Below are positions 501 through 29,761 of a stretch of DNA of 33,998 nucleotides, piece by piece. Positions within the stretch are counted from its first letter, which is position 1. Each line of letters begins with the position of its first letter. The translations under genes were made by a program, and so were the position numbers. The notes under the pieces are model-generated. The model was not told the origin of the DNA and searched no databases. It saw only the letters and a list, made by a program, of their open reading frames with translations. The DNA comes from Candidatus Zixiibacteriota bacterium (lineage in GTDB: Bacteria; Zixibacteria; MSB-5A5; GN15; FEB-12), in contig JAJRTA010000244.1 of assembly GCA_024278515.1 (NCBI GenBank), forward strand, positions 1 through 33,998. Direction: 5' to 3'.

Positions 501-1636
501 TGTCGCACTCGCGCCGAAAACCGGTAACAGCAGACGTTTCCCCCCGGCCCCGGATGCTTTTGTTCGTACTATGTTTTCTCTTGAGCGCATCTTCCACCGG
601 CGCGCAGACGCATGGACATCAACGCGCAAACCCGAGCGAACTCCGAACGGTACCGCCGGTACAGATCCGGTTCCGCGGCGAACTCAAACCGGACTCGGCT
701 ATTGCCCGCGGGCTGATGGAAATAGAAATCACCAACCGCACCGATGACACCATTCCGGCTATACGGATGTTCGCCGGTGTTCCGATCATCTCGCCGATGG
801 ATACGCTCGCTCACGAACCGCCGTATCTCAAACTCGATTCCATGCTCTACCGCGGGGTGCCGCTCTCGCCTGATGAGCTGACCATCGACAGTCACACTCT
901 CACCGTCAATCTTCCGCAACCGTTGCCGCCGGGCGAACGAGCCTTCTTCATTACCACTTTCACCACGAGAATGCGTAACAAACCCGGCCCGGGCGGAGTC
1001 GTCTATACCGGCTGGTATCCCAATGTCGCCGCCTGTTGTGACACGAGTCGGCTCACCCATCCGGACAGTGTGAACGCTCTGCCTGCGACAATGCTCGCCG
1101 ATTACACCGTCGCCCTCACCGTGGACTCGGTCTGGCATCTGGCCCACCCGGGGGAACTGGTGAACGACAAAGATCATTACGGCCTGCTTCCACCGGCCCA
1201 TAACGATTCAATCTATATCGATATAGTCCATGAGTATCAGCAGGAATTCATGGGGCGAAAATACCGGCCTTTCTTTGAGAGCGGCCGGAAAACTTACCTG
1301 ATCCGTTCGTTAAGCGATATCGACTTTCCGATAGTTGCCTGGGAAGGTCTGCTGCGTGACCGCGCTTTCGTTGACAGCCTGATCATCGAGGTTTGTTATC
1401 CGCCGAAGCTGGCCGATGTCTGGGCCGGACGCATCGTGAGAGCCGCTCTGAAGTTTGCGCGAAAGATGACCGCGCAGTTCGGTCCTGCCCCGATAACATA
1501 TTTACGAATAGCCCCGGCTGACTGTCTTGTATCGGATGTACGCTCACGACAGATCATCACTCTTCCGTATGATGTACGCGAACCTGATTCACTGACGGCG
1601 ATCCTGGAGAAGAGTTTCTCGAAAGGCCTTAAATGA
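500..1636 (+). CDS. Exported protein resembling M1 aminopeptidase N-terminal region, no catalytic motif
   Basis: 378 residues. Residues about 18-36 form a hydrophobic export signal ending at a probable cleavage after AQT. The mature part looks like the beta-rich N-terminal domain of M1 gluzincin peptidases: a strand pattern ending in GERAFFITTFTTRMRN, then YTGWYPNVAACCD near residue 170 where M1 enzymes have their WYP segment, then a PGELV strand. Near residues 312-326 WAGRIVRAALKFARKM and FGPAP resemble the helix that precedes the M1 active site. The protein then stops: no GAMEN and no HEXXH are present, and neither is found in other frames just downstream. It may be a degenerate or non-enzymatic binding protein. 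It overlaps its upstream neighbour by one base and the next gene by four (ATGA), so translation is probably coupled. The family assignment is inference. Confidence 0.55.
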   Translation: MSHSRRKPVTADVSPRPRMLLFVLCFLLSASSTGAQTHGHQRANPSELRTVPPVQIRFRGELKPDSAIARGLMEIEITNRTDDTIPAIRMFAGVPIISPMDTLAHEPPYLKLDSMLYRGVPLSPDELTIDSHTLTVNLPQPLPPGERAFFITTFTTRMRNKPGPGGVVYTGWYPNVAACCDTSRLTHPDSVNALPATMLADYTVALTVDSVWHLAHPGELVNDKDHYGLLPPAHNDSIYIDIVHEYQQEFMGRKYRPFFESGRKTYLIRSLSDIDFPIVAWEGLLRDRAFVDSLIIEVCYPPKLADVWAGRIVRAALKFARKMTAQFGPAPITYLRIAPADCLVSDVRSRQIITLPYDVREPDSLTAILEKSFSKGLK

Positions 1637-3648
1637 TGAATTTTAATTGCACAAGACTTGCCGGAAACTGGTCGAGGACTTTTTATCTGTTGCTTGCAAT
1701 ATCGATTCTACTGGGGACAACGATCTGCTACGCGCAATCTCCTGTAAACAAACTCACCCGCGAAGCGCGATCAAGGGCCGCCGCCGGGCCGTACCCGAAT
1801 ATATACTGGCTGTTTGTCGACAGTACGGCCGTTGCCGATCAACCGATCCCTTTGACCATACGCGCCCATCTCAGACGGGCCAAAGCGGACCCGGACAATT
1901 TACTCCGTGACAATCGCGATTACCCCATCTCGGAAACCGCGCTGGATGATATCCGCAACCTCGGCCTGACCATTCGTCACGCCTCACGTTACTTAAAAGC
2001 GGTCGCGGTAATCGCCGACCCGGTGCAGATTGCGGAGGCGGCAAACCTGCCGTTCGTGAAAAAAGTAGACATCCTCCGCACCCTGGCCGCGCCGATGCCG
2101 GAGGAAGCCGGGAAGATCGAGGAGCCTTTCCCCAAATCGGCGGTAGATTTCGGCTATGGTTTGTCTATCACGCAGAACCGGATTATCCAGGCCGACCGCT
2201 TACACCAGTTGAATATCACCGGGGCGGGAGTTATGATCGCCATATTCGACACCGGTTTCGATCTCGATCAACCGGTGCTGGCCGACGCCTCGATTGTCGC
2301 CACCTACGATTTCATCAATCAGGACAGCACGGTCAGCGAAATCGAATGTACGGATAACAACGCGCAGAACCGTCACGGCACCATGGTGTTCGCCGTGATA
2401 GCGGCGATGGCTCCCGATACATTGATCGGCATCGCTCCCGACGCTGATTTCATCCTGGCCAAAACTGAAATCGTCTGCGACGGCACCGAAATAAAACTTG
2501 AGGAAGACAACTGGATCGCCGCCGCCGAGTGGGCCGACTCCATCGGGACTGATATAATCACCTCATCGCTCAGCTACAGCGAGTTCACCGACAGCGGCAG
2601 TTATACTCTCGATCAAATGGACGGCAACACCGCTCTTATCACGCAAGCCGCCGATATTGCCGCTTCCAAAAACATCGTTGTGATAACATCAGCCGGAAAC
2701 AGCCGCGGCCATGACTGGGGCCGTATCGCCGCTCCGGCCGATGGCGACAGTGTGCTGGCTATCGGCGCGGTCAATCCGGATTCGACCCTGGCCTCCTTTT
2801 CTTCTCCCGGTCCGACGGCTGACGGCCGTATCAAGCCCGACATAACCACAATGGGGACAGTTGTTCTCACTATCCGGCCAAGGCCCGACACCGGTTACAC
2901 TTACGCAAGCGGGACTTCGTTTTCGGCCCCGATTACAGCCGGAGGGGCCGCCCTGGCCCTGCAGTTCGATCCGACCATGACAGCCGAGCAGTTTCGCCAA
3001 CTGGCCCGCTCTACGGCCAGCCAGGCCGACACTCCCGACAACGATTTCGGCTACGGTTTGTTCAACGCCTTCAGAGCCTCCGGTATCGCCACCCTTTCGG
3101 AAATAGACACGATCAAAATCGAGGTTGGTGAGATCATCGAGATACCTTTTGCCGTCTCCGGCAGCAGTGACGGCCCTCCGGAACTCAGTTTGAGATTTCC
3201 ACTGGCCGGGGTGGAGCTGATTGACTACGGTGACGGCAGCGGCCTGTTGCGAATCACCGGGTCATCCGACAATCCGCCCGTGGCGAGCTTTCGCCTGGTC
3301 GCCCAATTTGACACCTATTCAGACAGTACAACAATTCACCTCGAAACATTTGTTCCGACCGACCGGCAGATTTTCGCCGGGCCGAACCCGTTCACCGATT
3401 CGGTCCGATTCTATATCGACCCGCAGGCCGGAATGCTCAATTCCGTTTCAATATTCAACGTTAACGGTGAAAAGATATGGGAAAATGTCAACTCGAAGTC
3501 CGGTTCGACCGATAGCAATAGAGAATGGATCATGTTGGTGTGGGACGGCCGCAACCAGCAGGGACAGCCGGTTTCATCCGGTGTCTACATGGTTGCAGTC
3601 AACACCGACAGGCAACAAGTGGTCCTGAAATTGCTGAAGTCTAACTGA
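1633..3648 (+). CDS. Secreted S8 subtilisin-like serine protease with FlgD-like C-terminal domain
   Basis: 671 residues. A signal peptide covers residues about 15-35 and ends in CYAQS. Residues about 95-150 look like an inhibitor-type propeptide. The peptidase core carries the full triad: Asp206 in AIFDTGFD, His248 in NRHGTM and Ser429 in SGTSFSAP, with the oxyanion Asn356 in TSAGNS. From about residue 580 to the end lies a FlgD/CHU-type immunoglobulin-like domain (GPNPFTDSVRF, WDGRNQQGQPVSSGVYMV). This is common at the C-terminus of secreted proteins in FCB-group bacteria, where it can act as an anchoring or sorting domain. The start overlaps the stop of the previous gene (ATGATGA), and twelve bases separate its stop from the kinase gene. 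The protease fold is certain; its substrate is not visible. Confidence 0.93.
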   Translation: MMNFNCTRLAGNWSRTFYLLLAISILLGTTICYAQSPVNKLTREARSRAAAGPYPNIYWLFVDSTAVADQPIPLTIRAHLRRAKADPDNLLRDNRDYPISETALDDIRNLGLTIRHASRYLKAVAVIADPVQIAEAANLPFVKKVDILRTLAAPMPEEAGKIEEPFPKSAVDFGYGLSITQNRIIQADRLHQLNITGAGVMIAIFDTGFDLDQPVLADASIVATYDFINQDSTVSEIECTDNNAQNRHGTMVFAVIAAMAPDTLIGIAPDADFILAKTEIVCDGTEIKLEEDNWIAAAEWADSIGTDIITSSLSYSEFTDSGSYTLDQMDGNTALITQAADIAASKNIVVITSAGNSRGHDWGRIAAPADGDSVLAIGAVNPDSTLASFSSPGPTADGRIKPDITTMGTVVLTIRPRPDTGYTYASGTSFSAPITAGGAALALQFDPTMTAEQFRQLARSTASQADTPDNDFGYGLFNAFRASGIATLSEIDTIKIEVGEIIEIPFAVSGSSDGPPELSLRFPLAGVELIDYGDGSGLLRITGSSDNPPVASFRLVAQFDTYSDSTTIHLETFVPTDRQIFAGPNPFTDSVRFYIDPQAGMLNSVSIFNVNGEKIWENVNSKSGSTDSNREWIMLVWDGRNQQGQPVSSGVYMVAVNTDRQQVVLKLLKSN

Positions 3649-3660
3649 GACGCGAGTTGA

Positions 3661-5568
3661 ATGACTGTTAGTACGCTGACCGGTATAACCGGACTCTGCC
3701 GCTGTGCCGTATGCAAGATCGACCTGCGCGGTCGGTTTGTATTCATCGACGCACAGACCGAAGAACTCTTTGGCTATGCCTCCGAAGAGTTGTTCGGTAA
3801 ATCGATCCAGGACTACCTCGACAATGAATCATCCGCGATTATAGACCAGGCTCTGGGCGAACGAAATCACTACGAGACCCACTACGATCACGCTGTGCTG
3901 ACGGTGATCGATAAAACCGGCGCGAGGAAACAGGTGGATGCCACCATCTCTCTTTGTTTCGCCGCGGGGAATCCGGTAAATTACCAGCTCATACTCAGGC
4001 CGGGTTCGGCGGCTGTCGCCTCGACTGCTTCGCAACCCCCTGTCGGGATGTCGGTGGAGTCGTTTGTTGAACGTACTGTCACGATGGAACCGGCCAACCG
4101 TTTCCGCGCCCTGGCCGAACTCCTGTGCGAGTACACTTCGGCTGAACAGGTGGCGATTTATCTGACCGGTAACGACAGGCTCGAACCGCTGGCCTGCTCG
4201 GCTGAACGTGACTCCGACCGGATCAGTTTCGATGCCGTCAGCGATCCGACCGAGTTGCACCTGCTGGTTGCCCGCAGCGGTCAGGAATACGACTGGACCG
4301 GTTTCACAAAAGGACAAACGGACGGGCTAAACCGTCCGCCGGAGTTCGTGGCCTGCGCTTCTATCGATGGCCGTGACTGCCTGGTCCGTTTCATCTTTGA
4401 TGGGAACCTTGCTTCTGACCTGAGAGCCGGTCTTGTCGAACGATCACGTCTGGCTTTACGGATTGTCGGCCATATTTTTGGTCCCGAGTCGTCCGGTGAT
4501 GCAGCCGACCCCGGTATAGATATGAAATTCACCATCGGATTTCTGTCGGCGCTCGGTTTTGGCGCCCTGTTGACCGATGCTGACGGTTGTATCATCGGAT
4601 ATAACCCGGCCCTGTTGGAACTTCTTGAGGGCAAGCCGCCCGGAGAAACCAGCCGTGAGTTTGTCGGTCTTCTCGAAGGCGGCAACAGTTCCGCCTGGTC
4701 GGCCCTGATTCACGAACAGTTTCAAAAGGCCGACACCGATGATCTGCGGATAGAATTGACGCTTCCCTCCGGAACACCCTGTCATCTGGTCATCGTTCGT
4801 CTGGCCGTAGAATCTGACGATCAGACCGCCTGCTGGGTTTTGATACCCGGTTCACGGACAACTTCGGAGTCTTCGGACTCCGAATATGAGACATCCGTCT
4901 GGTCCTGCCTGGTCGATGGTCTCAAACCTGCCCTCGACGAGGTCGCCTCCGGAGCTGAAGAACTCAGCCGCGATTACTGCCGGCAAGTGAAGAAACTTGA
5001 TGATGCTCTTCTCAACCGGTTGCATGATGCCGTCAGAACAGTCCATCAGATACTTCACGAAGGGTCACTTCTGCGCTTCGGACGCAGTCGGCAACCTGCC
5101 ACGGTATGGGTCGACCTGAACAGTCTGGTCGAGGATGCGATTGAGAACGTACGCGGACAGTTCCCCGATGTCGAAATCGACTGTGAATGGGATGACCTGC
5201 CGTCGGTTCACACCTCACGAACCCGCTTGCTGGCTGTCCTGTCGAACCTGATGGCCAACTGTGTACGACATAACCTCTCCGACAAGGTCAGCCTGTCCGT
5301 AAACGTCGGCATACATGCCGACCGCTGCCGCATCGCCGTCACCGACAGCAACTCAGGCATGTCGCGACATCAGTTCAAACAGTTGTTCGACTTTTATCTC
5401 CCGCCATCGGATTCAGACAATTCAAGGCGCAACGGCGGCCCCGGCCTGGCCCTTGCCCAACTACTGATCAGTGACCTTGGAGGTAAGCTGACCGGCGCTT
5501 CCAAAGAAGGTGTCGGAACCCGCCTGTCGGTGTTGCTTCCCCGGGAGAAAGTATCCGAGGAACGGTAG
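3661..5568 (+). CDS. PAS-domain protein with histidine-kinase ATPase domain but no phospho-acceptor His
   Basis: 635 residues, no membrane segment, so probably cytoplasmic. A PAS domain spans about 12-113 (DLRGRFVFIDAQTEELFGY). A GAF-like segment follows at about 145-270. A second PAS domain spans about 290-397 (LLTDADGCIIGYNPALLELL). The C-terminal ATPase domain (about 484-628) has an N-box with Asn529 and Asn533, a G1 box with Asp562 and Gly566 though the usual middle Gly is Asn564, and a G2 box at Gly593-Pro-Gly595. Where a dimerization helix should carry H-E-x-x-x-P, the sequence reads VDGLKPAL (418-425), with Asp419 in the histidine's place. The stop codon directly abuts the ATG of the next gene, which encodes a His-containing helical hairpin without an ATPase domain. 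I infer the two work as one kinase. Confidence 0.85.
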   Translation: MTVSTLTGITGLCRCAVCKIDLRGRFVFIDAQTEELFGYASEELFGKSIQDYLDNESSAIIDQALGERNHYETHYDHAVLTVIDKTGARKQVDATISLCFAAGNPVNYQLILRPGSAAVASTASQPPVGMSVESFVERTVTMEPANRFRALAELLCEYTSAEQVAIYLTGNDRLEPLACSAERDSDRISFDAVSDPTELHLLVARSGQEYDWTGFTKGQTDGLNRPPEFVACASIDGRDCLVRFIFDGNLASDLRAGLVERSRLALRIVGHIFGPESSGDAADPGIDMKFTIGFLSALGFGALLTDADGCIIGYNPALLELLEGKPPGETSREFVGLLEGGNSSAWSALIHEQFQKADTDDLRIELTLPSGTPCHLVIVRLAVESDDQTACWVLIPGSRTTSESSDSEYETSVWSCLVDGLKPALDEVASGAEELSRDYCRQVKKLDDALLNRLHDAVRTVHQILHEGSLLRFGRSRQPATVWVDLNSLVEDAIENVRGQFPDVEIDCEWDDLPSVHTSRTRLLAVLSNLMANCVRHNLSDKVSLSVNVGIHADRCRIAVTDSNSGMSRHQFKQLFDFYLPPSDSDNSRRNGGPGLALAQLLISDLGGKLTGASKEGVGTRLSVLLPREKVSEER

Positions 5569-6291
5569 ATGGATTCGCACCCCGTTATTTTGATAGTCAG
5601 CGACGACGGCGACGCCGCAAACTGTCTGGTTGAAGAGATCACAGCGCTTTTTGATAGTCCCAGGATTGAAATAACCGAAACCCGGTCCGCTGTTCAGGGT
5701 TTGAAGGCAGGCCGGTTCGATATCTGTATAGTTCATTCAGAACAAGGCGATCCCGGCCTTGTTGAGTCAGTCTCACAATTACGCAAAGCGGCCCCCGACC
5801 TGACGATACTGGTCTCGCTCCCTGAAGACAGCGATATCCCGACCGACCGGCTTGAATCTTTCGGTCGGGTATATTGCTTCACTCGCAACACCCGATCCCC
5901 GATAGCCGTAACTACTATTATAGAGGAAATTGTTCGCCAACCGTCGTCGGTACGGTCCGGTTGGGTGGGAAAGACGAAAGCGGCGGGTGGTGGACAGACG
6001 GAAATCATCAGGACGGCTGCCGGGGTTTTGTCCCATGAGATCAACAATCCGCTCATGACGATTCTCGGGGTTTCGGAATTGCTTTTGAACGAAATCGGTA
6101 ATAAAAAGAACCGCGAGCTGGCTCAGAAAGTAACGATGATTCGCAAATCCGCCGAACGCATAGAATCGAGCCTGAAGCGGCTGTTAAATATCGCCGAGAC
6201 ACAGTTTCAATCAACTCAGTCCGACCGGATCGCCGAGGTGGAAACCATATCGGACACCCGCAAATCCGGCAATTCTCGCTCCATACGCTGA
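5569..6291 (+). CDS. Degenerate receiver fused to HisKA phospho-acceptor domain, no ATPase domain
   Basis: 240 residues. Residues 5-123 have the alternating beta/alpha pattern of a response-regulator receiver (VILIVSDDGDA at the start), but the phosphorylation site is lost: DICIVHSEQ puts His56 where the acceptor Asp should be, the first acidic residue is Ser11, and the conserved Lys is replaced near CFTRN. Residues about 147-215 are a HisKA dimerization domain with a textbook H-box, LSHEINNPL, His156 being the likely phosphorylated residue, followed by the second helix (AERIESSLKRLLNIAE). The protein ends 25 residues later; there is no N, G1 or G2 box here or in the following 69 bases. The start abuts the stop of the preceding ATPase-domain gene with no gap. 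It probably supplies the phospho-acceptor for that protein, an inference from domain complementarity. Confidence 0.82.
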   Translation: MDSHPVILIVSDDGDAANCLVEEITALFDSPRIEITETRSAVQGLKAGRFDICIVHSEQGDPGLVESVSQLRKAAPDLTILVSLPEDSDIPTDRLESFGRVYCFTRNTRSPIAVTTIIEEIVRQPSSVRSGWVGKTKAAGGGQTEIIRTAAGVLSHEINNPLMTILGVSELLLNEIGNKKNRELAQKVTMIRKSAERIESSLKRLLNIAETQFQSTQSDRIAEVETISDTRKSGNSRSIR

Positions 6292-6359: not shown

Positions 6360-7235
6360 ATGTATTCAATGACCGGCTTTGGCCGCGCCGAGATAACAAC
6401 AAAGTACGGGAAGTTCACCACCGAGGTAGCCAGCGTAAACAACCGCTTTCTGGAGATTTCGGTACGTTTGCCCCGTTCTTTTTTCATGTTTGAGCAAAAG
6501 GTTCGTCAACTGGTCTCGTCGAAACTCGATCGCGGTAAAGTGCATCTTTTTGTAAACTTCGAACTGCCTGACGATTCGCCTGAGAAATACCCGCTGAACC
6601 AAACGGCCGTCCGTTCATATTATAAACAACTGAAAAAACTCAATAAAGATCTCAAACTGGTTGATGATATCAAACTCAGTGATCTTTTGGCCCTGCCGGA
6701 AGTCTGTAGTTCGCCTTCGGAAAACGGCGATCCCGACAAGTTGTGGCCGTCTTTGAAGCGGTGTGTCGACAAAGCGATCGTCAATCTCATCGGTATGAGG
6801 CGGGAAGAGGGCAAAGCGCTGGCTCAGGATATGACCAAACGGCTTACTATTATAGAGCGTCTCAACGCCAGGGTTCTGAAAGCCGCTCCGAAGGCGGTTC
6901 GCCAATATCGGGAGAAGCTGGCTGTGCGAGTTGAAGAGCTGCTGGAACGTCCGGTGGGCGACCGAAACCGTCTTGAGGAAGAAATAGCGGTATTTGCCGA
7001 AAAAACCGATATTTCCGAAGAATGCACACGGATGGTCAGCCATATCAAGCAGTTCCGCTCGACCATGAAACAGAAAGGCTCTATCGGGAAAACGATCAAT
7101 TTCATATTGCAGGAAATGAACCGGGAAGCCAATACAATCGCCTCGAAAGCCTCGGAAATCAACATAACCAGAACTTCGATAGCCATCAAAGACGAAGTGG
7201 AGAAACTACGCGAGCAGGTTCAAAACGTTGAGTAG
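6360..7235 (+). CDS. yicC: YicC family endoribonuclease-like protein
   Basis: 291 residues from the ATG at 6360, which gives the family's typical beginning MYSMTGFGRA. An upstream in-frame TTG at 6345 would add five residues, but the GAGG at 6352-6355 is placed for the ATG. The N-terminal YicC domain continues through NNRFLEISVRLPR. The C-terminal half is the DUF1732 region with the well-conserved FILQEMNREANTIASKA and ITR segments and a closing EKLREQVQNVE. Escherichia coli YicC has been described as an endoribonuclease involved in small-RNA turnover; the role here is by family. It overlaps the gmk start by eight bases and heads a block with gmk and rpoZ, a gene order seen in many bacteria. 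Confidence 0.93.
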   Translation: MYSMTGFGRAEITTKYGKFTTEVASVNNRFLEISVRLPRSFFMFEQKVRQLVSSKLDRGKVHLFVNFELPDDSPEKYPLNQTAVRSYYKQLKKLNKDLKLVDDIKLSDLLALPEVCSSPSENGDPDKLWPSLKRCVDKAIVNLIGMRREEGKALAQDMTKRLTIIERLNARVLKAAPKAVRQYREKLAVRVEELLERPVGDRNRLEEEIAVFAEKTDISEECTRMVSHIKQFRSTMKQKGSIGKTINFILQEMNREANTIASKASEINITRTSIAIKDEVEKLREQVQNVE

Positions 7236-19740: not shown

Positions 19741-20322
19741 CTACCAGTCATCCTCGGTGTCCTGATCTGCCTTGCGGATAAGTTCGTCATATTCAAGTTG
19801 ATGTTCGATTGTGGCGACATAGGGGCGTATCCAGTGATTGTCGCGCCGGTAGAGCATAAGCAGCATCGTCTGACCGGGATCGGTTTCTTTCATCCCGGTA
19901 AAATAAAACTCGGTTTTGGCCAGCGCGGAATCCATATCAAAGAACTTTATGTCCAGAAGATCAACGCGGATCAGGCCGGTGACATTGGCCCATTGTACCT
20001 CACCCCGTTTCAGGTAATCATCGAAGTTCTCGCGTTCCCTGAGATATTGGAACTCGTTATCCCATAGGCCCGATTTATCGCGGTATTTCATGCGGGTAAG
20101 CACTTCATCAATGAGCCTGATTATCTCAATCCAGTCGGCTTTTCGGTCGCCCCACTCGCTGGTATCTTTGAGCACCCGAATATAGGTGAACCCGGATTGT
20201 TCTTCGTCCGGAGATTCATCGGTGATTTCGGGCAATTCTGTTTCCGTTTCTCCACCGCATTGAACCAGATGAACAATTGAAACGATTAAAATCGACAGCA
20301 ACATACGGTTAATTATGCGCAT
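19741..20322 (-). CDS. Putative lipoprotein inside the methylmalonyl-CoA operon
   Basis: 193 residues from the ATG at 20322, which has GGAG eight bases upstream; a start at 20343 is possible but less well placed. The N-terminus ([25 protein letters not shown]) is a hydrophobic signal followed by a Cys with Gly-Gly after it. The lipobox LVQC is imperfect because of the Gln, so lipid anchoring is likely but not sure. An acidic linker precedes a compact domain of about 130 residues ([15 protein letters not shown], then a run of beta strands ending HWIRPY) that could be NTF2-like; I do not recognise a family. It starts 14 bases inside the end of the mutase gene and abuts the epimerase, so it is firmly embedded in a cytoplasmic metabolic operon. 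Confidence 0.7.
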
Positions 20323-21871
20323 GATATTCACTCCATACGTCACGGAACTGATCCGATATCTCGCCTACCGTAACATAGTTTTCTACAGCTTCAACCACCG
20401 GTTCGACAATATTATCCGAGCTTTCGGCGGCTTTTCTCAGATTCTCAAGACAGGCGGCGACCCGGATGTTGTCGCGTGATGCTTTGACCTCGGCCAGACG
20501 CTTTTTCTGGTTCTCTTCAAGTTCCGGGTCCACTTTCAGGATCCGGGGGCTGTTCATTTCTTCATCAGCGAACCTGTTGACCCCCACCACTACGCGTTCC
20601 CCGCTCTCGATCGCTTTCTGAGCGGCATAGGCGGCCCGTCCGATCTCATTGCGATAGTAGCCGTTTTCGACACAGTTTACAGCTCCCCCCTGCTTTTCTA
20701 TTTCGTCCATTATCGCAAGCACCCGTTTTTCCATCTCAGCGGTCAGGTATTCCACGTAGTGGGAACCGGCCAGAGGATCGGCTGAATCGGCGCATCCCGA
20801 CTCATAGGCAAGGATCTGCTGAGTACGCAGGGCTATCTCGGCCGCTTTCTCAGTCGGAAGCGAAAGTGCTTCATCGAATGAATTGGTGTGTAAAGACTGC
20901 GTTCCGCCAAGGATAGCCGACAACGCCTGCACAGTGGTGCGGACGATATTGTTCTCCGGCTGCTGGGCTGTCAAAGTAGAGCCGCCGGTCTGAGTGTGAA
21001 ATCTCAACAACATCGATTTTTCGTTGGTCGATTTGAAACGGTCTTTCACCGTGCGCGCCCAGATCGTGCGGGCAACACGGAACTTGGCCACCTCTTCAAA
21101 CAGGTCGTTGTGCGCCGCGAAGAAAAACGACAACCGCGGCGCGAACTTATCGATATCAAGCCCGGCCTTCAAAGCGGCCTCGCAGTACGCGATACCGTTG
21201 GACAGGGTGAAGGCCACTTCCTGAGCCGCGGTTGAGCCGGCTTCGCGAATGTGATAACCGGATATCGAAATTGTGTTGAATTTCGGCAGATGTTTGTCGG
21301 CATACGCGAAAATATCGGTTATGATCCGCATCGAGGGCAACGGCGGGAAAATATAAGTACCGCGGGCAATAAACTCTTTCAGAATATCGTTCTGGACAGT
21401 ACCCATCAGTTTCTCCGGTGACACTCCCTGTTTTTTGCCTACCGCTATGTACATGGCCAGCAGAACCACCGCCGTTGAATTGATGGTCATCGAGGTGGAT
21501 ACTTTATCAAGAGGGATACCGTCGAAAAGTGTCTCCATGTCGGCCAGTGTGTCAATAGCCACACCGGTGCGGCCGACCTCTCCCCGGGCCATCGGGTGGT
21601 CGGAATCGTAGCCGATCTGCGTGGCCAGATCGAAAGCGACCGAAAGACCGGTTTGGCCGCGTTCGAGCAGATATTTGAAACGCTGGTTGGTTTCGGTGGC
21701 GGTGCCGAACCCGGCATACTGGCGCATGGTCCAGAGCCGCCCGCGATACATGTCCGGATAAACCCCTCGCGTAAATGGAAACTGCCCGGGTCTGCCGGAT
21801 GATGTATCGGCTCCGGCAACCACAGGTATTTCGATACCGGAGCCGTTGAGTTTTTCAGGCGGAGTCATCAC
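20309..21871 (-). CDS. mutA: Methylmalonyl-CoA mutase, catalytic (large) subunit without B12 domain
   Basis: 520 residues. The enzyme isomerises (R)-methylmalonyl-CoA to succinyl-CoA with adenosylcobalamin. The TIM-barrel part is complete ([60 protein letters not shown]). Residues that set substrate choice match methylmalonyl-CoA mutase: Tyr52 in RQYAGF and Arg170 in IARGTY, 118 residues apart as Tyr89 and Arg207 are in the Propionibacterium enzyme, plus His207 in GYHIRE. There is no C-terminal B12-binding domain, so it needs a separate subunit; the only one in view is encoded about 6 kb upstream in the same operon. The start (ATGATGA) overlaps the biotin carrier stop. Confidence 0.93.
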
Positions 21872-22380
21872 TCGAACTCCAGAATAATATCACCTTTCTC
21901 GACCGAATCACCCCGGGCGACATTGACCGATTTCACCGTCACATCCGCCTGGGCCTTAAGAACATTTTCCATTTTCATCGCCTCGATAATCACCAGCGGA
22001 TCATTTCTGGCCACCTTCTGCCCGGGTTCGACTTTGACCTCGAGGATCAAACCCGGCATCGGAGCCCGCAGGTTTCTGGCCGCGGCGGATTTGGTGGTCA
22101 TACCAGCACGCTTGCGAAGTTGGGCCAGATTATACTGTTCCACTTCGGCGTTTATCTCAACACCCAGCATGAAAACAGTACGCCCTTCCTCATGATTATT
22201 CGGGTGCACATCGACCTCGAACGAACGATCATTAACCAGCAGCACCGAGCGAGTTGCTCCGATCGAATGACTCTTCACATCCACATTCTGCCCGTCAACC
22301 ATGACGTTGAAACCATCGGCATGATAGCCGATGTCTATATCAAACTCACGTCCCTCTACTTTGACCAGATAGCGCGGCAT
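21868..22380 (-). CDS. Biotin carboxyl carrier subunit of propionyl/acetyl-CoA carboxylase
   Basis: 170 residues. The C-terminal biotinyl domain (about 104-170) carries the attachment site EAMKMEN with Lys136 as the biotinylated residue, preceded by [18 protein letters not shown]. The N-terminal 90 residues form a beta-rich domain ([33 protein letters not shown]) like the linker domain between carboxylase and biotinyl domains in fused propionyl-CoA carboxylase alpha subunits. So the alpha subunit seems split into two genes here. It overlaps the biotin carboxylase stop by one base (TGATG) and the mutase start at the other end. Confidence 0.93.
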
Positions 22381-23912
22381 CAGCTTTCCCTTTCGAATTT
22401 GCGCAAACGGTCACGTCGATGATGATTCCGCCAGAGCGATACGGCGCGACGGTTGCCGTCCCCAGAATTCAAGGCGATTTTGCGTTCATGCGTAAACTTG
22501 TCCAGGGCGGCGGCAATAGCGGCCGACCTCAGAATATCATCATCGAGAATCTCGTACTTGTTGTCCGGGTACTCTTCAGTAAGAAAACTCGTCGAGAGAT
22601 CGCCTTTGACGAATCTCTCGCTGGCCAAAACCGCCAGATGAAACCCGATAGTCGTTTTCAGCCCTGAGACCCGGTATTCCTGCAGGGCGCGCCGGGTTCG
22701 GGCAATCGCTTCAGCGCGATCACTGCCCCAGACGACCAGCTTGGCGATCATCGGGTCGTAGTAGATAGGTATCTCGTTATAAATAACAACTCCGGAGTCC
22801 ACCCGCACACCGGGACCGGCCGGGATGCGATAGTGCTGCAACCTTCCCGTTGAAGGCGCGAAACCGTTTTGCGGATCCTCGGCGTAGATCCGGCATTCAA
22901 TGGCGTGACCATCGAGTTTGATGTCTTCCTGTGTGTACCGCAGTTGTGTCCCCTCGGCTACGGCAATCTGTTCCCTGACGAGATCAACACCGGTGACCAT
23001 TTCAGTAACCGGATGTTCCACCTGCAGGCGGGTGTTTACTTCGAGAAAGTAAAACGACAAATCCTGAGCCACCATGAATTCAACCGTTCCCGCCCCGACA
23101 TAGCCGGTTTTCAGCGCAATGTTGACCGCCGCTTCTCCCATGCGCTGTCGTAATTCAGGCGTAACCACCGGCGACGGTGACTCCTCGATCACTTTCTGAT
23201 GGCGTCGTTGAATCGAACATTCCCGTTCGTTCAGATGAATCGCGTTGCCGTGCTGATCGCATAGGATCTGTATTTCGATATGGCGGGGACGCTCGAGATA
23301 TTTTTCGATATAGACCCGTCCGTCACCGAACGCGGACCTGGCTTCGCTTGACGCCCGTTGTAAGGAGTTTTCAAACTCGTCGGCCCGGTGAACAACACGC
23401 ATCCCTTTCCCGCCGCCGCCTGCGGCCGCTTTGATCAGGATCGGGTAGCCGACTTTATCGGCTTTTGAGATGGCCGTTTCGAGGTCGTCTCCCTCGATGG
23501 TTTCCCCCGGCACTACCGGCAGTCCGGCCTCGAGCGCCGCCGCCCGCGCCTGCAGTTTGTCACCTAACAGTGAGATAGTCTCCGGCCTGGGACCGATAAA
23601 GATGATTCCTTCATCGGCGCAGCGTTGCGCGAACACGGCATTTTCGGCGAGGAAACCATAACCGGGATGGATGGCCTCGGCTCCCGATCGTCTGGCGGCG
23701 TCGATTATCTTATCCTGGTTGAGATAGCTTTCCGACGACGGCGAGGCGCCGATATGAAAAGCCTCGTCGGCCAGCCGCACATGGTAGGCCGCCCGGTCGC
23801 AGTCGGAAAAAACCGCCACCGAGGTTATTCCAAGATCACGACAGCCGCGGATTATCCGCACGGCGATTTCACCCCGGTTGGCGATCAGTATTTTTTTTAT
23901 TTTATCCGGCAT
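22380..23912 (-). CDS. accC: Biotin carboxylase subunit of propionyl/acetyl-CoA carboxylase
   Basis: 510 residues. It carboxylates biotin with ATP and bicarbonate. The protein opens with KILIANRGEIAVRIIR, has the ATP-grasp glycine-rich loop AAGGGGKGMRVV (about 164-175), the RHIEIQ segment, RECSIQRRHQKVIEE, and the catalytic FLEVNTRLQVEHPVTE. A C-terminal stretch of about 60 residues after the standard domain is charged. GGTGG lies before the ATG. Either acetyl-CoA or propionyl-CoA carboxylase could use this subunit; its place between a propionyl-type carboxyltransferase and a mutase favours propionyl-CoA. The gene symbol follows the domain, not a proven role. Confidence 0.93.
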   Translation of the reverse strand: MPDKIKKILIANRGEIAVRIIRGCRDLGITSVAVFSDCDRAAYHVRLADEAFHIGASPSSESYLNQDKIIDAARRSGAEAIHPGYGFLAENAVFAQRCADEGIIFIGPRPETISLLGDKLQARAAALEAGLPVVPGETIEGDDLETAISKADKVGYPILIKAAAGGGGKGMRVVHRADEFENSLQRASSEARSAFGDGRVYIEKYLERPRHIEIQILCDQHGNAIHLNERECSIQRRHQKVIEESPSPVVTPELRQRMGEAAVNIALKTGYVGAGTVEFMVAQDLSFYFLEVNTRLQVEHPVTEMVTGVDLVREQIAVAEGTQLRYTQEDIKLDGHAIECRIYAEDPQNGFAPSTGRLQHYRIPAGPGVRVDSGVVIYNEIPIYYDPMIAKLVVWGSDRAEAIARTRRALQEYRVSGLKTTIGFHLAVLASERFVKGDLSTSFLTEEYPDNKYEILDDDILRSAAIAAALDKFTHERKIALNSGDGNRRAVSLWRNHHRRDRLRKFERES

Positions 23913-23932
23913 CTGTATCCACCATGCGCCGA

Positions 23933-25483
23933 TTACAGCGGGATGTTCCCATGTTTCTTCGGCGGGTTGCTGTCTTTCTTCGTCTCGAGCATCTCAAAAG
24001 CGCGAATCAGACGGGGACGAGTTGTTTTGGGTTCAATTACATCATCAATATAACCCCGGGCCGCCGCCTGATACGGGTTGGCGAATTTCTCCCGGTACTC
24101 GTCGGACTTTTTCTGCAGTTCGGTCTCCGGATCTTCGGCCTCGGAGATATCCTTTTTGAATATGATCTCCGCCGCCCCCTTGGAGCCCATCACCGCGATC
24201 TCAGCCGAGGGCCAGGCGTAATTCATGTCACCACGAACATGCTTCGAGTTCATAACGTCGTACGCACCTCCGTACGCCTTGCGTGTAATCACCGTCACCT
24301 TGGGTACTGTCGCTTCGCAGTATGCGTACAACAGCTTGGCCCCGTTTTTGATAATACCGCCGTGTTCCTGATCCATGCCGGGTAAAAAGCCGGGGACATC
24401 TTCAAAAGTCAGGATAGGGATATTGAACGCGTCGCAGAACCGGATAAACCGCGCCCCCTTGGTCGACGAGTTAATATCCAGCACCCCGGCCAGCACCGCC
24501 GGCTGGTTGGCTACTATACCGATCGACCGGCCGCCGAGGTGCGCGAAGCCGACCACGATATTCTGCGCGAAATCCTCATGCACTTCAAGAAAAGCACCTT
24601 CATCGACAACAGCCCGAATAACATCTTTAATGTCATACGGCACATTAGGGTTGTCCGGCACAATCCTGTTCAACGATTCGTCTTCGCGATCAGGCGGATC
24701 ATCGGTATCGCGCCACGGCGGGTCCTCGCAGTTGTTCTGCGGTATGTACATCATCAGCTTCCTGAGCCGCGAGATGGCGTCGGCTTCGTTCTCGCAGGCG
24801 AAATGCGCCACACCCGATTTTTCGGCGTGAACCATGGCGCCGCCCAGTTCTTCCGATGTCACCTGTTCGTGAGTGACTGTTTTTACGACATTGGGGCCGG
24901 TCACGAACATGTACGAGGTACCTTTGGTCATAAAAATGAAGTCGGTAATGGCCGGGCTGTAGACCGCGCCCCCCGCGCATGGTCCCAGTATCAGCGACAA
25001 TTGCGGCACTACGCCCGAGGCGAGAGTGTTCAAAAGAAAGATGTCGGCATAGCCTCCGAGCGAGACCACCCCCTCCTGAATACGAGCGCCGCCGGAATCG
25101 TTCAGCCCGATCACCGGAGCGCCGACTTTCATGGCCATCTTCATGATCTTGCATATCTTCTCGGCGTGCGCCTCCGACAAAGAGCCGCCGAACACGGTAA
25201 AGTCCTGCGAAAAGATATAAACGATCCGGCCGTTGATCTTACCGCAACCGGTGACGACACCGTCGCCGAGCACTTTCTGCTTGTCAAGACCGAAGTCGTG
25301 CGAACGGTGCGTTACGAACATGTCGAATTCTTCGAATGAATTCTCATCAACGAGAAGTTCGATCCTTTCGCGCGCGGTCAGTTTTCCCTTGGCGTGCTGA
25401 GCGTCGATCCTCTTTTGTCCGCCGCCAAGCCTGGCCAGGTTGCGCTGCTCTTCAAGCCTGTTTAGTTGTTCCTTAAGTGACAA
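23933..25483 (-). CDS. pccB: Propionyl-CoA carboxylase carboxyltransferase (beta) subunit
   Basis: 516 residues, the normal length for the family. It transfers the carboxyl group from biotin to propionyl-CoA, giving (S)-methylmalonyl-CoA. Both crotonase-like halves are present: [20 protein letters not shown] with the oxyanion glycines in the first, and [18 protein letters not shown] with [14 protein letters not shown] in the second. The Asp409 in GGAYDVM corresponds to the residue that in Streptomyces PccB favours propionyl-CoA, where acetyl-CoA-tolerant enzymes have Ile. The start is a TTG at 25483; no ATG occurs nearby. Twenty bases separate it from the biotin carboxylase gene. Methylmalonyl-CoA decarboxylase subunits look similar, but no decarboxylase membrane subunit is encoded here. 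Confidence 0.93.
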
Positions 25484-25508
25484 TCTGCACCCGACTTATC
25501 TAAAATGT

Positions 25509-26345
25509 TCATGCTTCCACCGGCACGGCTTTCATTCGTTTACCATCGGAAACAATTCGAGCCAGCGGGGCGGATGTGTCGTGATCGAATGCCATTATTA
25601 CATCCTGATCGATAATCAGCGGCAAGGTCCGTCGTTTTATTTCCATCGTGTCCGTCGGGTAGAGATCGGTCGCAGGGACATAAGCCACCCCCATGTGAGC
25701 GGAGGTGCAAAAAATATCCGCGTAATAAAAGACTTTCTCACCCTCGGACTCTATTTCCAGAGCAAAATGCGAAGCGGTATGCCCGCCGGTAAAGACCGCC
25801 CTGATTCCCGGAAGAATCTCGGTATCGCTGTCGATAAAATCAACCAGTCCGGCATCGCTGAGCGGTTTCAACCGATCGGGGACATATACCGCCGAGGTAC
25901 GTTCATCCGGAGTCATGGCCAGATCCCACTCCCGCTGCCCCACGACATGCCGCGCCTTTGGGAATCGTGCCGTGTACTGATCGTCCAAAAGCTTCACCGC
26001 GCCGGCGCAATGATCGGTGTGCAGATGGGTCAGCACGACGTAATCGATATCATCAGCGGTCAGCCCGCACGTTTTCAATCCTTCATCCATATAGGAGACG
26101 CCCTCGGTGCCGTAGATCTTCTTTTCGCGGTCACTCAGGGTGTCCCCGAGACCGGCATCGAATATGATATTCCTGTCGTGCGCTTTCAACACGAACAGGT
26201 TGGTGACCATCGGAATCAGGTTGTTTTCATCGGGTGGGATCAACCGCTGCCATATTGATTTCGGAATGACTCCGAACATGGTCCCGCCGTCGAGCCGGAA
26301 TTTCTGCTCGACAAAAGTCTGAATTTCGAACCGACCGAACTTCAT
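25509..26345 (-). CDS. MBL-fold metallo-hydrolase
   Basis: 278 residues. The metallo-beta-lactamase signature THLHTDH gives His107, His109, Asp111 and His112, with the other ligands at His189 (FTGGHTASH), Asp210 (YYADIF) and His255 (AFDHD), so both zinc sites are intact. There is no signal peptide. The overall pattern (SNLFVLKAHDRNIIFDAGLGD and a VVGQREWDLA segment) is that of the AHL-lactonase/quinolone-type MBL group, which includes lactonases and thioester hydrolases. It starts one base inside the acyl-CoA dehydrogenase stop (TGATG). Position between an acyl-CoA dehydrogenase and the carboxylase suggests a CoA-thioester or lactone substrate; that is inference. Confidence 0.88.
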   Translation of the reverse strand: MKFGRFEIQTFVEQKFRLDGGTMFGVIPKSIWQRLIPPDENNLIPMVTNLFVLKAHDRNIIFDAGLGDTLSDREKKIYGTEGVSYMDEGLKTCGLTADDIDYVVLTHLHTDHCAGAVKLLDDQYTARFPKARHVVGQREWDLAMTPDERTSAVYVPDRLKPLSDAGLVDFIDSDTEILPGIRAVFTGGHTASHFALEIESEGEKVFYYADIFCTSAHMGVAYVPATDLYPTDTMEIKRRTLPLIIDQDVIMAFDHDTSAPLARIVSDGKRMKAVPVEA

Positions 26346-27487
26346 CAGCGCCCGATAACATTTCCGGCGATCACTAAACGCTGCACTTCAGAAGTGCCTT
26401 CGTAGATTTCAAGCACCCGCTGGTCGCGGTAGAGTTTCTCGATCTGCGTGAACTCTCCGATAAATCCGTAACCGCCGTGAATCTGCATGGCGCGATCAAC
26501 GCAGAAATTGGCCGCCTCCGAGGCGTACAGTTTGGCCATGGCCGCTTCGACCGAAAACTTTTCACCCCGGTCCTGCATCATGGCCGCTTTGTAAGTCAGA
26601 GCGCGGGCCGCTTCGGTGCGGACAGCCATATCGGCGATCATCCACTGAATCGCCTGAAGTTTGGCTATCGGCGCGCCGAAGGCGATTCGTTTCTTGGCGT
26701 AGGCGATTGATTCATCCAGCGCCCGTTGCGCGATGCCCACTCCCTGAGCGGCGACGCCCACCCGGGCCGAATCGAGCGTCGACATGGCATAACGAAAACC
26801 GCGGCCCACCTCGCCGAGCAGGTTTTCTTTGGGCGCTTTTACATCTTTAAGAAGGATATGACCGGTAGTGGCGGCCCGCATACCCATCTTGTTGCGCAGG
26901 GTACGGGCTTCCCATCCGGGCTGGTCGGTCTCTACAATAATAGCGGAGAGTTTCGGCTTGCCTTCGATCTTACAGAATACGACACCCAGGTCGGCCACAT
27001 CGCCGTGCATGATAAAAGTCTTCTCGCCGTTGATAACGTAACCGTCGTCGGTTTCGACCGCCGTGGTGGTGAGCGAGGCGGCGTCGGAACCGGCGTTCGG
27101 TTCGGTCAACACGAAGGCCGGGATCCGTCGTCCCATGGCACAGTCCGGCACATACTTTTTCTTCTGCTCATCGTTACCGAAATGAATGATCGGGTGGGTA
27201 GCCAGTTCGGCGACCGCCGCGAGCAGTCCTATCGCGGCATCGTGATAGCAGAGTTCCTCTACAGAAGTGATATACTCGAGGCTGGATTTCCCCTGGCCTT
27301 CATACTCGCTCGGCATGACAAACCCGATATAACCGGCGTCGCCCAGTTTCCTGTAAAGTTCACGGGGGAATTTTCTCGGTTCCGGCATTTCATCCAGTTC
27401 CCGCGAAATCGGGTACATCTCTTTTTCGGCAAATGCTTTGACTTCATCCCTGATTGCTTGCTGGCGTTCATCAACATTCTTGTTCAT
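26345..27487 (-). CDS. Acyl-CoA dehydrogenase (short/branched-chain type)
   Basis: 380 residues from the ATG at 27487, which has a strong GGAGG six bases upstream; an upstream ATG at 27517 has none. The FAD-dependent fold is complete: FVLTEPNAGSDAAS for flavin contact, MGMRAATTGHILLKDV, and the C-terminal IHGGYGFIGEF and EIYEGTSEVQR. Glu363 in YEGTSE is the likely catalytic base, the position used by short- and medium-chain enzymes. It would oxidise a saturated acyl-CoA, passing electrons to ETF. Next to an isobutyryl-type mutase the likely substrates are isobutyryl-CoA or butyryl-CoA, which is inference from context. Confidence 0.92.
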   Translation of the reverse strand: MNKNVDERQQAIRDEVKAFAEKEMYPISRELDEMPEPRKFPRELYRKLGDAGYIGFVMPSEYEGQGKSSLEYITSVEELCYHDAAIGLLAAVAELATHPIIHFGNDEQKKKYVPDCAMGRRIPAFVLTEPNAGSDAASLTTTAVETDDGYVINGEKTFIMHGDVADLGVVFCKIEGKPKLSAIIVETDQPGWEARTLRNKMGMRAATTGHILLKDVKAPKENLLGEVGRGFRYAMSTLDSARVGVAAQGVGIAQRALDESIAYAKKRIAFGAPIAKLQAIQWMIADMAVRTEAARALTYKAAMMQDRGEKFSVEAAMAKLYASEAANFCVDRAMQIHGGYGFIGEFTQIEKLYRDQRVLEIYEGTSEVQRLVIAGNVIGR

Positions 27488-27577
27488 ATTTCCTCCGGTC
27501 GGTCCTTGCTCGGACATTATTGGAATAATGTTGTAATCGTATCCGAATCTGTTCTGATATGCCTTCCGTACGCGCAG

Positions 27578-27982
27578 TTATTTCCGTTTTTCTTCAATGG
27601 CCTTGCGTAACCACTTGATCGCTTCTTCGGTCGGCGCGCCCGGCGTGAAAATCCGGGCGACTCCCATCTTTTCCAGTTCCTGTTTGTCACTGTCCGGAAT
27701 TATCCCGCCGCCGAACAGCAGGATATCCGATGCGTCCCGCGCCTTCATTTCATCAAGAATGGCCGGGAACAGGGTCATGTGGGCGCCGGAAAGAATCGAC
27801 ACTCCGACAGCGTCCACATCCTCCTGAACCGCGGCATCGACAATCATCCGGGGTGTCTGCCTGAGTCCGGTATAGATTACTTCCATCCCGGCGTCGCGAA
27901 ACGCCGCGGCAATCACTTTGATCCCGCGGTCATGACCATCGAGGCCCGGTTTTGCCAACAGTACTCTGATTTTTTCTGACAT
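27578..27982 (-). CDS. icmB: Cobalamin-binding small subunit of an acyl-CoA mutase
   Basis: 134 residues, a free-standing B12-binding domain. The DxHxxG signature is Asp15-Gly-His17-Asp-Arg-Gly20 in [10 protein letters not shown]; His17 would ligate cobalt from below. The rest follows the Rossmann-like pattern: [12 protein letters not shown] and LFGGGIIPD near the nucleotide tail of the cofactor, and [13 protein letters not shown] near the end. Length and position beside the 565-residue mutase match the IcmA/IcmB arrangement of Streptomyces isobutyryl-CoA mutase. It is the only B12 subunit in the window, so it may also serve the second mutase 6 kb downstream. The ribosome binding site is poor. 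Confidence 0.9.
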
Positions 27983-28063
27983 CTGAAATCTATATTTTAA
28001 GGTCCATCGAATTCATTCAACCAGGTATGCGTTACACGTTCCATTCTGCCTTTTTGCAGTCCC

Positions 28064-29761
28064 TCACGAGGCCATCATCGCCGAGGCCGGTTCGACATAT
28101 TCACCCCACTCTTCGCGCAGGACATCGCACATCTCGCCAAGCGTAACATAAACACGGCTGCAGTCCAGAATCGCCTCGAAAGTGTTACCTTCACCGCGCG
28201 CCACCCGGCGAAGATTGTCCAGTGTTTCTTTGACCGCGGTTCCGTCCCGCTCGGCTCGGATTTTCTTCACAAACGCAACCTGATCGGTTTCCACCTGCTT
28301 GTCAATGTACAGAATGGGGATTTCGATCTCTTCGTCATCTTCTACATAGTCGTTGACGCCGACAATGGTTCGTTCTTTGGTTTCGATTTCACGCTGGTAT
28401 CGATAAGCGGATTTGGCCAGTTCACGCTGGAAAAATCCTTCCTCGATACACTGAAGAACCCCGCCGCGACGTTCGATCTCTTCGAAATAGGCTTCGACCT
28501 CGGCTTCCATCTTGTCGGTCAGCGCCTCGACGAAATACGAGCCGGCCAGAGGATCGATAGTATTGACCACGCCGGATTCATGCGCGATTACCTGTTGAGT
28601 ACGCAGGGCGATTTTGGCCGCTTTTTCAGACGGCAGGGCCAGTGTTTCATCCATCGAGTTCGTGTGCAGCGACTGGGTTCCGCCCAGAACACCGGACAAC
28701 GCCTGCAATGCGACCCGGACGATATTGTTCTCCGGCTGTTGTGCCGTGAGCGAGCATCCGGCGGTCTGCGTATGGAACCGCATCAGCCAGCTCCGTTCCT
28801 TCTTCGCCCCATACTTTTCTTTCATGTATCGGGCATATATCCGCCGGGCAGCCCGGTATTTGGCGATCTCTTCGAAGAAATCGGAATGGGCGTTGAAGAA
28901 ATACGACAGGCGGGGCGCAAACTCATCAACATCCTGCCCGGCTTCAATCGCGGATTCGACATACTGGAAACCGTCGGCCAGCGTAAAGGCCAGTTCCTGC
29001 ACCGCCGTGGCCCCGGCTTCACGAATATGATAGCCGGAAATCGAAATCGTATTCCACTGTGGCACGTGTTTGGTACAGTATTCCATCATGTCGGTGATCA
29101 GCCTCAGCGACGGACGCGGCGGGAAGATGAACTCCTTTTGCGCAATGTATTCCTTGAGGATATCATTCTGAAGAGTACCGCGCACCTGATCGAACGGCAC
29201 CCCCTGCTTTTCAGCGACACAAAGATACATGGCCAGCGCCATCGAGGCGGAAGAGTTGATGGTCATTGACGTGGAAACCTTTGACAGGTCAATGCCGTCG
29301 AAAAGGATTTCCATATCGGCCAGGCTGTCGACCGCCACGCCGCACTTACCGACCTCGCCGAGTGAGCGTGAATGGTCGGAATCGTACCCCATCAGGGTCG
29401 GCAGGTCGAAGGCTGTCGAAAGACCGGTGCCGCCGCTTTTGAGAAGATACTTGAACCGTTCGTTGGTCTGTTTAGGGGTTCCCATACCGGCAAACTGGCG
29501 CATCGTCCACAGCCGCGTGCGGTACATCGTATGATGTACGCCGCGCGTATAGGGATACTCGCCGGGCAGGCCGATTTTGTCAAAATAGTAATCATCGTTT
29601 CCTTCGGTATTGATTGATGCCGGCGTGTACAATTCGTCGATATCGACACCGGATACCGTAAAGAAACGAGGTTTGGATTTTCTCTGTCGGGTCTTCTCGG
29701 CCGTCTTGTTCCAGTTGATCAGACGGGCGTTCAGATTGTCCATAAAGCTCTTTGTAAACAC
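28064..29761 (-). CDS. icmA: Acyl-CoA mutase catalytic subunit with isobutyryl-CoA mutase signature
   Basis: 565 residues from a GTG at 29761, chosen because GGAG lies seven bases before it; an ATG 18 bases further in (29743) is possible. Length equals that of Streptomyces IcmA, including the N-terminal arm ([14 protein letters not shown]) missing from the other mutase here. The residues that separate isobutyryl- from methylmalonyl-CoA mutase are both changed to the isobutyryl form: Phe90 in RQFAGM for Tyr, and Gln208 in IAQKEF for Arg, spaced 118 apart as Phe80 and Gln198 are in the Streptomyces enzyme. His245 in GYHIREAG is kept. It should interconvert isobutyryl-CoA and butyryl-CoA. It needs the B12 subunit encoded 81 bases downstream. 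Confidence 0.88.

Follow-up and report, generated by a model that had tools for sequence, protein, structure and literature searches.

Two adjacent genes in a Candidatus Zixiibacteriota genome encode proteins, here P1 and P2, that together contain the parts of one histidine kinase. Do they form a single enzyme divided between two polypeptides? A preliminary description of the DNA proposed that they do, with sensing and an ATPase domain on P1 and the phospho-accepting histidine on P2. The window analysed here is the whole 33,998-nucleotide stretch that carries the pair, and its relevant features, with residues numbered within each protein, are as follows.

1633..3648, + strand: subtilase (Peptidase_S8) gene, syntenic, upstream of P1
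3661..5568, + strand: P1, 635 amino acids; PAS, GAF-like, PAS, His-less DHp and HATPase_c domains; candidate sensor pseudokinase
3703..4002, + strand: PAS 1 of P1, residues 15–114; Pfam PF00989 (8.9e-11), model pLDDT >90 over most of it
4054..4479, + strand: GAF-like domain of P1, residues 132–273; from predicted fold and Foldseek
4522..4848, + strand: PAS 2 of P1, residues 288–396; second Pfam PAS stretch, also in the model
4870..5070, + strand: DHp-like helical hairpin of P1 without phospho-acceptor, residues 404–470; from model helices and alignment to the H-box of family f2
4915..4917, + strand: Asp419 codon of P1, at the alignment position of the missing phospho-acceptor His
5218..5547, + strand: HATPase_c domain of P1 with N-box Asn533, G1 Asp562 and G2 Gly595; from Pfam, and from Foldseek to ZraS and HK853
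5566..5571, + strand: P1 stop TAG abutting P2 start ATG; a translational-coupling layout, with a gap that varies in relatives
5569..6291, + strand: P2, 240 amino acids; degenerate receiver and stand-alone HisKA/DHp domain, without a CA domain
5569..5949, + strand: degenerate receiver of P2, residues 1–127; homologues match Response_reg, and from fold
6019..6195, + strand: HisKA/DHp domain of P2, residues 151–209; Pfam PF00512
6034..6036, + strand: His156 codon of P2 in LSHEINNPL, with Glu157 and Asn160 conserved alongside
6196..6288, + strand: C-terminal tail of P2, with no CA domain there; the family motif T-x-x-G-x-M/L-I/V is degenerate here
6360..7235, + strand: syntenic gene downstream of P2 that we take, from its sequence, to be yicC; followed by gmk and topA, an order conserved in relatives

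The locus was compared across 80 genomes of one order of Candidatus Zixiibacteriota. A tree built from four syntenic neighbour proteins in 67 of these genomes contains three clades used throughout: f1, to which the window belongs, f2 and f4.

Pfam searches confirm the division of domains between the two proteins. P1 has two PAS stretches and HATPase_c (E 1.6e-14) and no HisKA match, whereas P2 has HisKA (PF00512, E 1.3e-10) and no HATPase_c match. The PAS–GAF–PAS sensor arrangement proposed for P1 holds at the level of Pfam for the PAS domains and the ATPase domain that follows; the middle domain has no Pfam match and is assigned as GAF-like from the structural model and Foldseek. An AlphaFold model of P1 residues 1–402 (36 sequences, mean pLDDT 84.7) contains PAS, GAF-like and PAS folds in that order, and its best PDB fold matches are PAS/GAF sensors, including photosensor and DosP-type proteins. 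PAS 1 is the best-conserved part of P1. Within it Cys15 (codon 3703–3705) is invariant in the P1 alignments and Cys18 is near-invariant in f1, in the motif C-A-V-C-K-I-D, possibly forming a putative redox or cofactor site.

The DHp–CA half of P1 matches solved kinase cores such as those of ZraS and HK853 in Foldseek. The family alignment places the phospho-acceptor His of the f2 H-box (AHDLRAPL) at column 419, which is Asp in the window, as the preliminary description had it. The N, G1 and G2 boxes that it also listed are present as Asn533, Asp562 and Gly595, but the G1 box is partly degenerate, because it reads DSNSG in place of DxGxG and so lacks the first Gly. The HATPase_c score is 54.7 bits in the window versus 97.7 bits in f2. 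Alignment of the window's P1 reveals no acceptor His that had been overlooked. In 22 of 32 f1 P1 proteins a His lies exactly 18 residues past the lost acceptor, five helical turns on, in a motif like L-x-H-E-F-Y-N-x-L, with no clear link to an intact ATPase. This His is absent from f2 and from the window's clade, where the position is Arg or Ser (Arg437 in the window), and was rejected as an acceptor for the window's P1.

P2 has the clean H-box and lacks the ATPase domain, as first described, and ends 31 residues past its HisKA match. The motif T-x-x-G-x-M/L-I/V ends 39 of 43 P2 proteins, and the tail of the window's P2 does not fit it. The preliminary statement that no receivers are encoded nearby stands for functional receivers only, since residues 1–127 of P2 are themselves a degenerate receiver: the f2 homologues match Response_reg at E 1.1e-19, and this half of the window's protein forms five β–α units in the AlphaFold model. 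In the window's clade (G000, G001, G002, G003 and G006) the receiver's phospho-Asp is replaced by His (His56, 5734–5736) and its Lys by Arg; the Asp is present in f2 and most of f1. The window's P2 may be drifting, because it lacks the tail motif and has lost the receiver Asp and Lys.

P1 and P2 share a reading frame, divided by a single TAG, and, as noted earlier, no base separates stop from start. About 68 bases then lead from the end of P2 to the ATG at 6360, against the 69 first counted. The gene order subtilase–P1–P2–yicC–gmk–topA is retained in f1 and f2, and only its subtilase–P1–P2 part in f4, so that the subtilase gene is directly upstream of P1 in all three families. Elsewhere in the window, the minus strand at 20312–29761 carries a cluster with two methylmalonyl-CoA mutase genes, biotin carboxylase, carboxyl transferase and acyl-CoA dehydrogenase genes.

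A single TAG between in-frame genes could arise by sequencing error, stop read-through or breakage of a fused gene. These origins are ruled out by the relatives. P1 and P2 are two genes in every genome that has both, with no fused, intact version among them; the spacing between them covers every frame and varies between −190 and +130 bases, and P1 ends in TAA, TAG or TGA.

The adjacent pair sought in related genomes proved to be conserved across the order. P1 is present as an open frame with the same synteny in 69 of the 80 genomes and P2 in 51, with some contigs ending before the expected place of P2; the 11 genomes without P1 include one from the same genus as the window (G005). A search for related loci with a single P1 sequence found nothing, and one with the P1 alignment recovered 41, nearly all from Zixiibacteriota. 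Outside the order the searches for the locus returned generic kinase ATPase matches only.

This distribution allows the idea of a split histidine kinase to be examined directly. Under that explanation the P1 ATPase would phosphorylate His156 of P2 in trans and P2 would pass the phosphate to an unlinked response regulator. All the required parts are present across the two proteins, as the preliminary description stated, and neither would autophosphorylate alone in the classical way: P2 has the DHp domain with its His and P1 the ATPase domain. The genes abut, and a precedent exists in CheA3/CheA4 (PMC3591291). P1 retains the ATPase Asn and Asp in the window, in G002 and in G004. If the P1 ATPase serves the P2 His, however, both should be kept or lost together.

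They are not. We scored the P1 ATPase as intact where it has the N-box Asn as well as the G1 Asp, a criterion of two residues only. The P2 His is present in 43 scored genomes, just 17 of which have an intact P1 ATPase. Within f1, 10 genomes have both features, 5 the ATPase only, 16 the P2 His only and 13 neither (Fisher p 0.53), and the P2 His is unchanged in about nine of ten independent ATPase contrasts on supported branches, a small number. With two-residue scoring and so few contrasts weak coupling may exist, but no association is seen: the P1 ATPase and the P2 His vary independently.

Individual lineages depart from coupling in both directions. In G001, G003 and G006, which form the sister clade to the window plus G002, P1 ends right after the DHp domain and the ATPase is deleted; many further lineages combine a P2 His with a lost or degenerate ATPase. 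Genus g36 shows the reverse pattern, with a canonical P1 ATPase and a lost P2 His, replaced by Arg in three of its four genomes. G050–G053 have a canonical ATPase with a lost or altered P2 His box, G020 has a P1 with canonical ATPase and no P2, and G067–G069 have neither an intact P1 ATPase nor the P2 His. The ATPase-less clade is nevertheless constrained: dN/dS values by the NG86 method are 0.062/0.232 for P1 and 0.029/0.233 for P2, and 0.018/0.325 (about 0.06) for the P2 DHp domain between G001 and G003. Both proteins of this clade, including the P2 His domain, are under purifying selection. For G000 against G002 synonymous sites are saturated, which makes the ratio uninformative.

The history of the pair also argues against two halves of one enzyme. 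In f2, P1 has both the AHDLRAPL H-box and a canonical ATPase (His in five of six cases, Cys in G070), and P2 has a full receiver with its Asp and Lys, followed by HE-x-NNPL and no ATPase domain. In f1 the P1 acceptor His is gone in every readable case except G016, where the contig stops partway through the ATPase domain; in f4 most P1 proteins are reduced to PAS/GAF. We infer that the complete P1 kinase of f2 is ancestral because a canonical H-box is unlikely to arise anew; change counts on the tree do not root this trait. Loss of the P1 His would then be the later event, since the f2 P1 is an ordinary kinase beside a receiver–DHp P2. P2 thus already had no CA domain at the stage when P1 was complete, so P1 and P2 are not fragments of one enzyme, and the proposal of complementary halves fails on this point as well as on the independence of ATPase and His.

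As an account of the pair, the split kinase is therefore unlikely; the window's own P1 adds the missing first Gly of the G1 box and the low Pfam score against it. Trans-phosphorylation of P2 by P1 is possible in this genome. As judged from the comparison of sequences, it is not what the pair has been conserved for.

The reading that we prefer, to which we assign a probability of roughly 0.5, is that the locus is a rebuilt, lineage-specific two-component pair in which P2 would be a stand-alone DHp protein steered by P1, with its phosphate partners elsewhere. The ancestral form would have resembled f2, a complete sensor kinase P1 beside a receiver–DHp P2 already without an ATPase domain. In the window's family P1 would have lost its His and turned into a pseudokinase sensor, with the P2 receiver additionally losing its phospho-Asp in the window's clade; the parts retained are the first PAS domain of P1 and the P2 H-box (HE-x-N-N-P-L). 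P1 would sense a signal and steer P2 by direct contact, and His156 would receive its phosphoryl group from partners encoded elsewhere, or hydrolyse it or pass it to them. In the window, G002 and G004 the P1 ATPase might add direct phosphorylation of P2. An AlphaFold prediction of the P1 DHp–CA region joined to P2, with the TAG read as Gln, contains the domain folds, at a pTM of 0.45 that makes the arrangement unusable for P1–P2 contact.

The residues around the P2 His fit partners in trans. In HisKA kinases the acidic residue at +1 is needed for kinase activity and a Thr or Asn for phosphatase activity (PMC3510030). Glu is found at +1 in all 45 P2 proteins with the His and Asn at +4 in 43, and both are present in 27 of the 28 His-bearing P2 proteins without an intact P1 ATPase. 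That pairs without an ATPase keep these residues suggests continued encounters of P2 with a CA domain or receiver encoded elsewhere. The conservation of Glu157, the kinase-specific acidic residue that the split-kinase explanation would also invoke (PMC3510030), points to some ATPase domain working on His156 in trans, a situation compatible with a split kinase broadly defined. Such partners are available, because the genome contains about 30 HisKA, 30 HATPase_c and 44 receiver matches.

P2 is not the only DHp protein of this kind in the genome. A 253-residue GAF–DHp protein (L211:1644-2405; G000:C159:35143-35904) has an NHEINN box and no ATPase domain. Of 132 Zixiibacteriota genomes, 109 contain this family, almost always as a single copy; those members whose complete sequence was read lack a CA domain, and the family shares a C-terminal motif, Y-x-[DE]-G-x-K-M-[IL]-x-L, in a tail similar to that of the P2 family. 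DHp-only proteins are a recurring kind here, given the spread of this CA-less family across the phylum. A third, a 293-residue GAF–DHp protein without ATPase (L217:2267-4934, − strand, G000 contig C3), adjoins a 590-residue kinase with a good H-box (HisKA 3.7e-17) and a degenerate ATPase without a HATPase_c match; receivers follow. We tentatively raise the idea that P2 and the phylum-wide GAF–DHp proteins might form one class of stand-alone DHp proteins, with a short conserved tail in place of the ATPase and a His that kinases or receivers charge in trans. They would act as hubs collecting phosphate from several kinases, with P1 as the dedicated sensor for one hub.

A purely allosteric pair, like DivL or RetS, would need no phosphate between P1 and P2: the P1 DHp would bind P2 or another kinase and change its activity, and the P2 DHp would be a docking or dimerizing surface. 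P1 is in a DivL-like state, with the acceptor His replaced and the ATPase fold kept (PMC4211667), and genus g42 retains both genes with the P2 His changed to Asn and a degenerate P1 ATPase. Retention of His156, Glu157 and Asn160 together in P2 of 43 of 51 genomes exceeds what a scaffold needs, however, and makes this explanation improbable. That the pair is what remains of an old two-component system in decay and on its way to being lost might be read from the repeated losses of the P1 His, ATPase, receiver Asp and P2, from the changes counted on the tree (12 in ATPase state, 6 in P2 presence) and from the genomes without P1, but is very improbable and already disfavoured, since 69 of 80 genomes keep the frames open and the synteny fixed and dN/dS is well below 1 in the ATPase-less clade.

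Split kinases, pseudokinases and HisKA proteins without ATPase are all kinds of protein already known. What is new is that the evolution of such a pair has been traced, and that DHp-only proteins with a tail motif are conserved across an order and a phylum. Across the tree of 67 genomes a sensor kinase loses its acceptor, and often its engine, while the neighbouring protein keeps an acceptor box intact. Natural pairs with and without the ATPase make the origin of pseudokinases and of ATPase-less HisKA proteins testable, and neighbouring genes can carry complementary kinase parts without making up a split kinase.

Among characterized systems LvrA/LvrB of Leptospira, a receiver-controlled histidine kinase pair, also consists of adjacent genes for an upstream sensor kinase and a receiver–DHp protein. 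LvrB is a REC–DHp–CA kinase switched on by the upstream kinase, with an active receiver (PMC13269768, PMC5863495). The best NCBIfam match of P2 and of its f2 relatives is LvrB (3e-8 and 2e-20), and a P2 profile matches the LvrB structure, PDB 8vc9, at E 3e-17. The LvrB-type order of REC followed by HisKA/DHp is seen in f2 P2 (Response_reg and HisKA) and, with a degenerate REC, in the window. Because LvrB is its nearest named relative, P2 looks like an LvrB-type protein whose CA domain was lost or never present. P2 departs from LvrB in that it is without a CA domain of its own and, in the window's clade, has a dead receiver; the pair also differs from LvrA/LvrB in that P1 has no acceptor His.

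Established split kinases include CheA3/CheA4 of Rhodobacter sphaeroides and Hik36/Hik43 (PMC3591291, PMC7656254). CheA3/CheA4 resemble our pair in placing phospho-acceptor and ATPase on two proteins, but they have CheA-type domains and proven phosphotransfer (PMC3591291), whereas the P1 ATPase and P2 acceptor evolve independently. The halves of a split kinase would be expected to be kept or lost together; the P1 ATPase and the P2 His are not, with G001/G003/G006, g36 and G020 as counter-examples. P1 has the hallmark of histidine pseudokinases, a DHp–CA core with the His replaced (Asp419, with the fold match to kinase cores). DivL of Caulobacter is likewise PAS-bearing, with a replaced acceptor and a retained ATPase fold (PMC4211667); it differs in having Tyr at the acceptor site, in sensing DivK~P and in controlling CckA.

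For P2 the counterparts are Spo0B, ChpT and PhyT, which have a DHp-type domain with a His and no functional ATPase. In overall build ChpT is like a complete kinase core, and PhyT carries an ATPase domain that is degenerate (PMC3433190, PMC5898713), whereas P2 has a short tail and no CA domain. The CA-like fold that follows the DHp in these proteins is absent from P2, and the likeness is one of domain type. HisKA proteins without HATPase_c make up 3.66% of HisKA proteins in SMART, and 1.7% carry the HE/DxxN/T phosphatase motif (PMC3591291). P2 and the GAF–DHp proteins belong to this class, and P2 also has the motif. The class is a count rather than a characterized family (PMC3591291), and neither members conserved across an order or phylum nor the tail motif are described there; P2 and the GAF–DHp proteins supply both.
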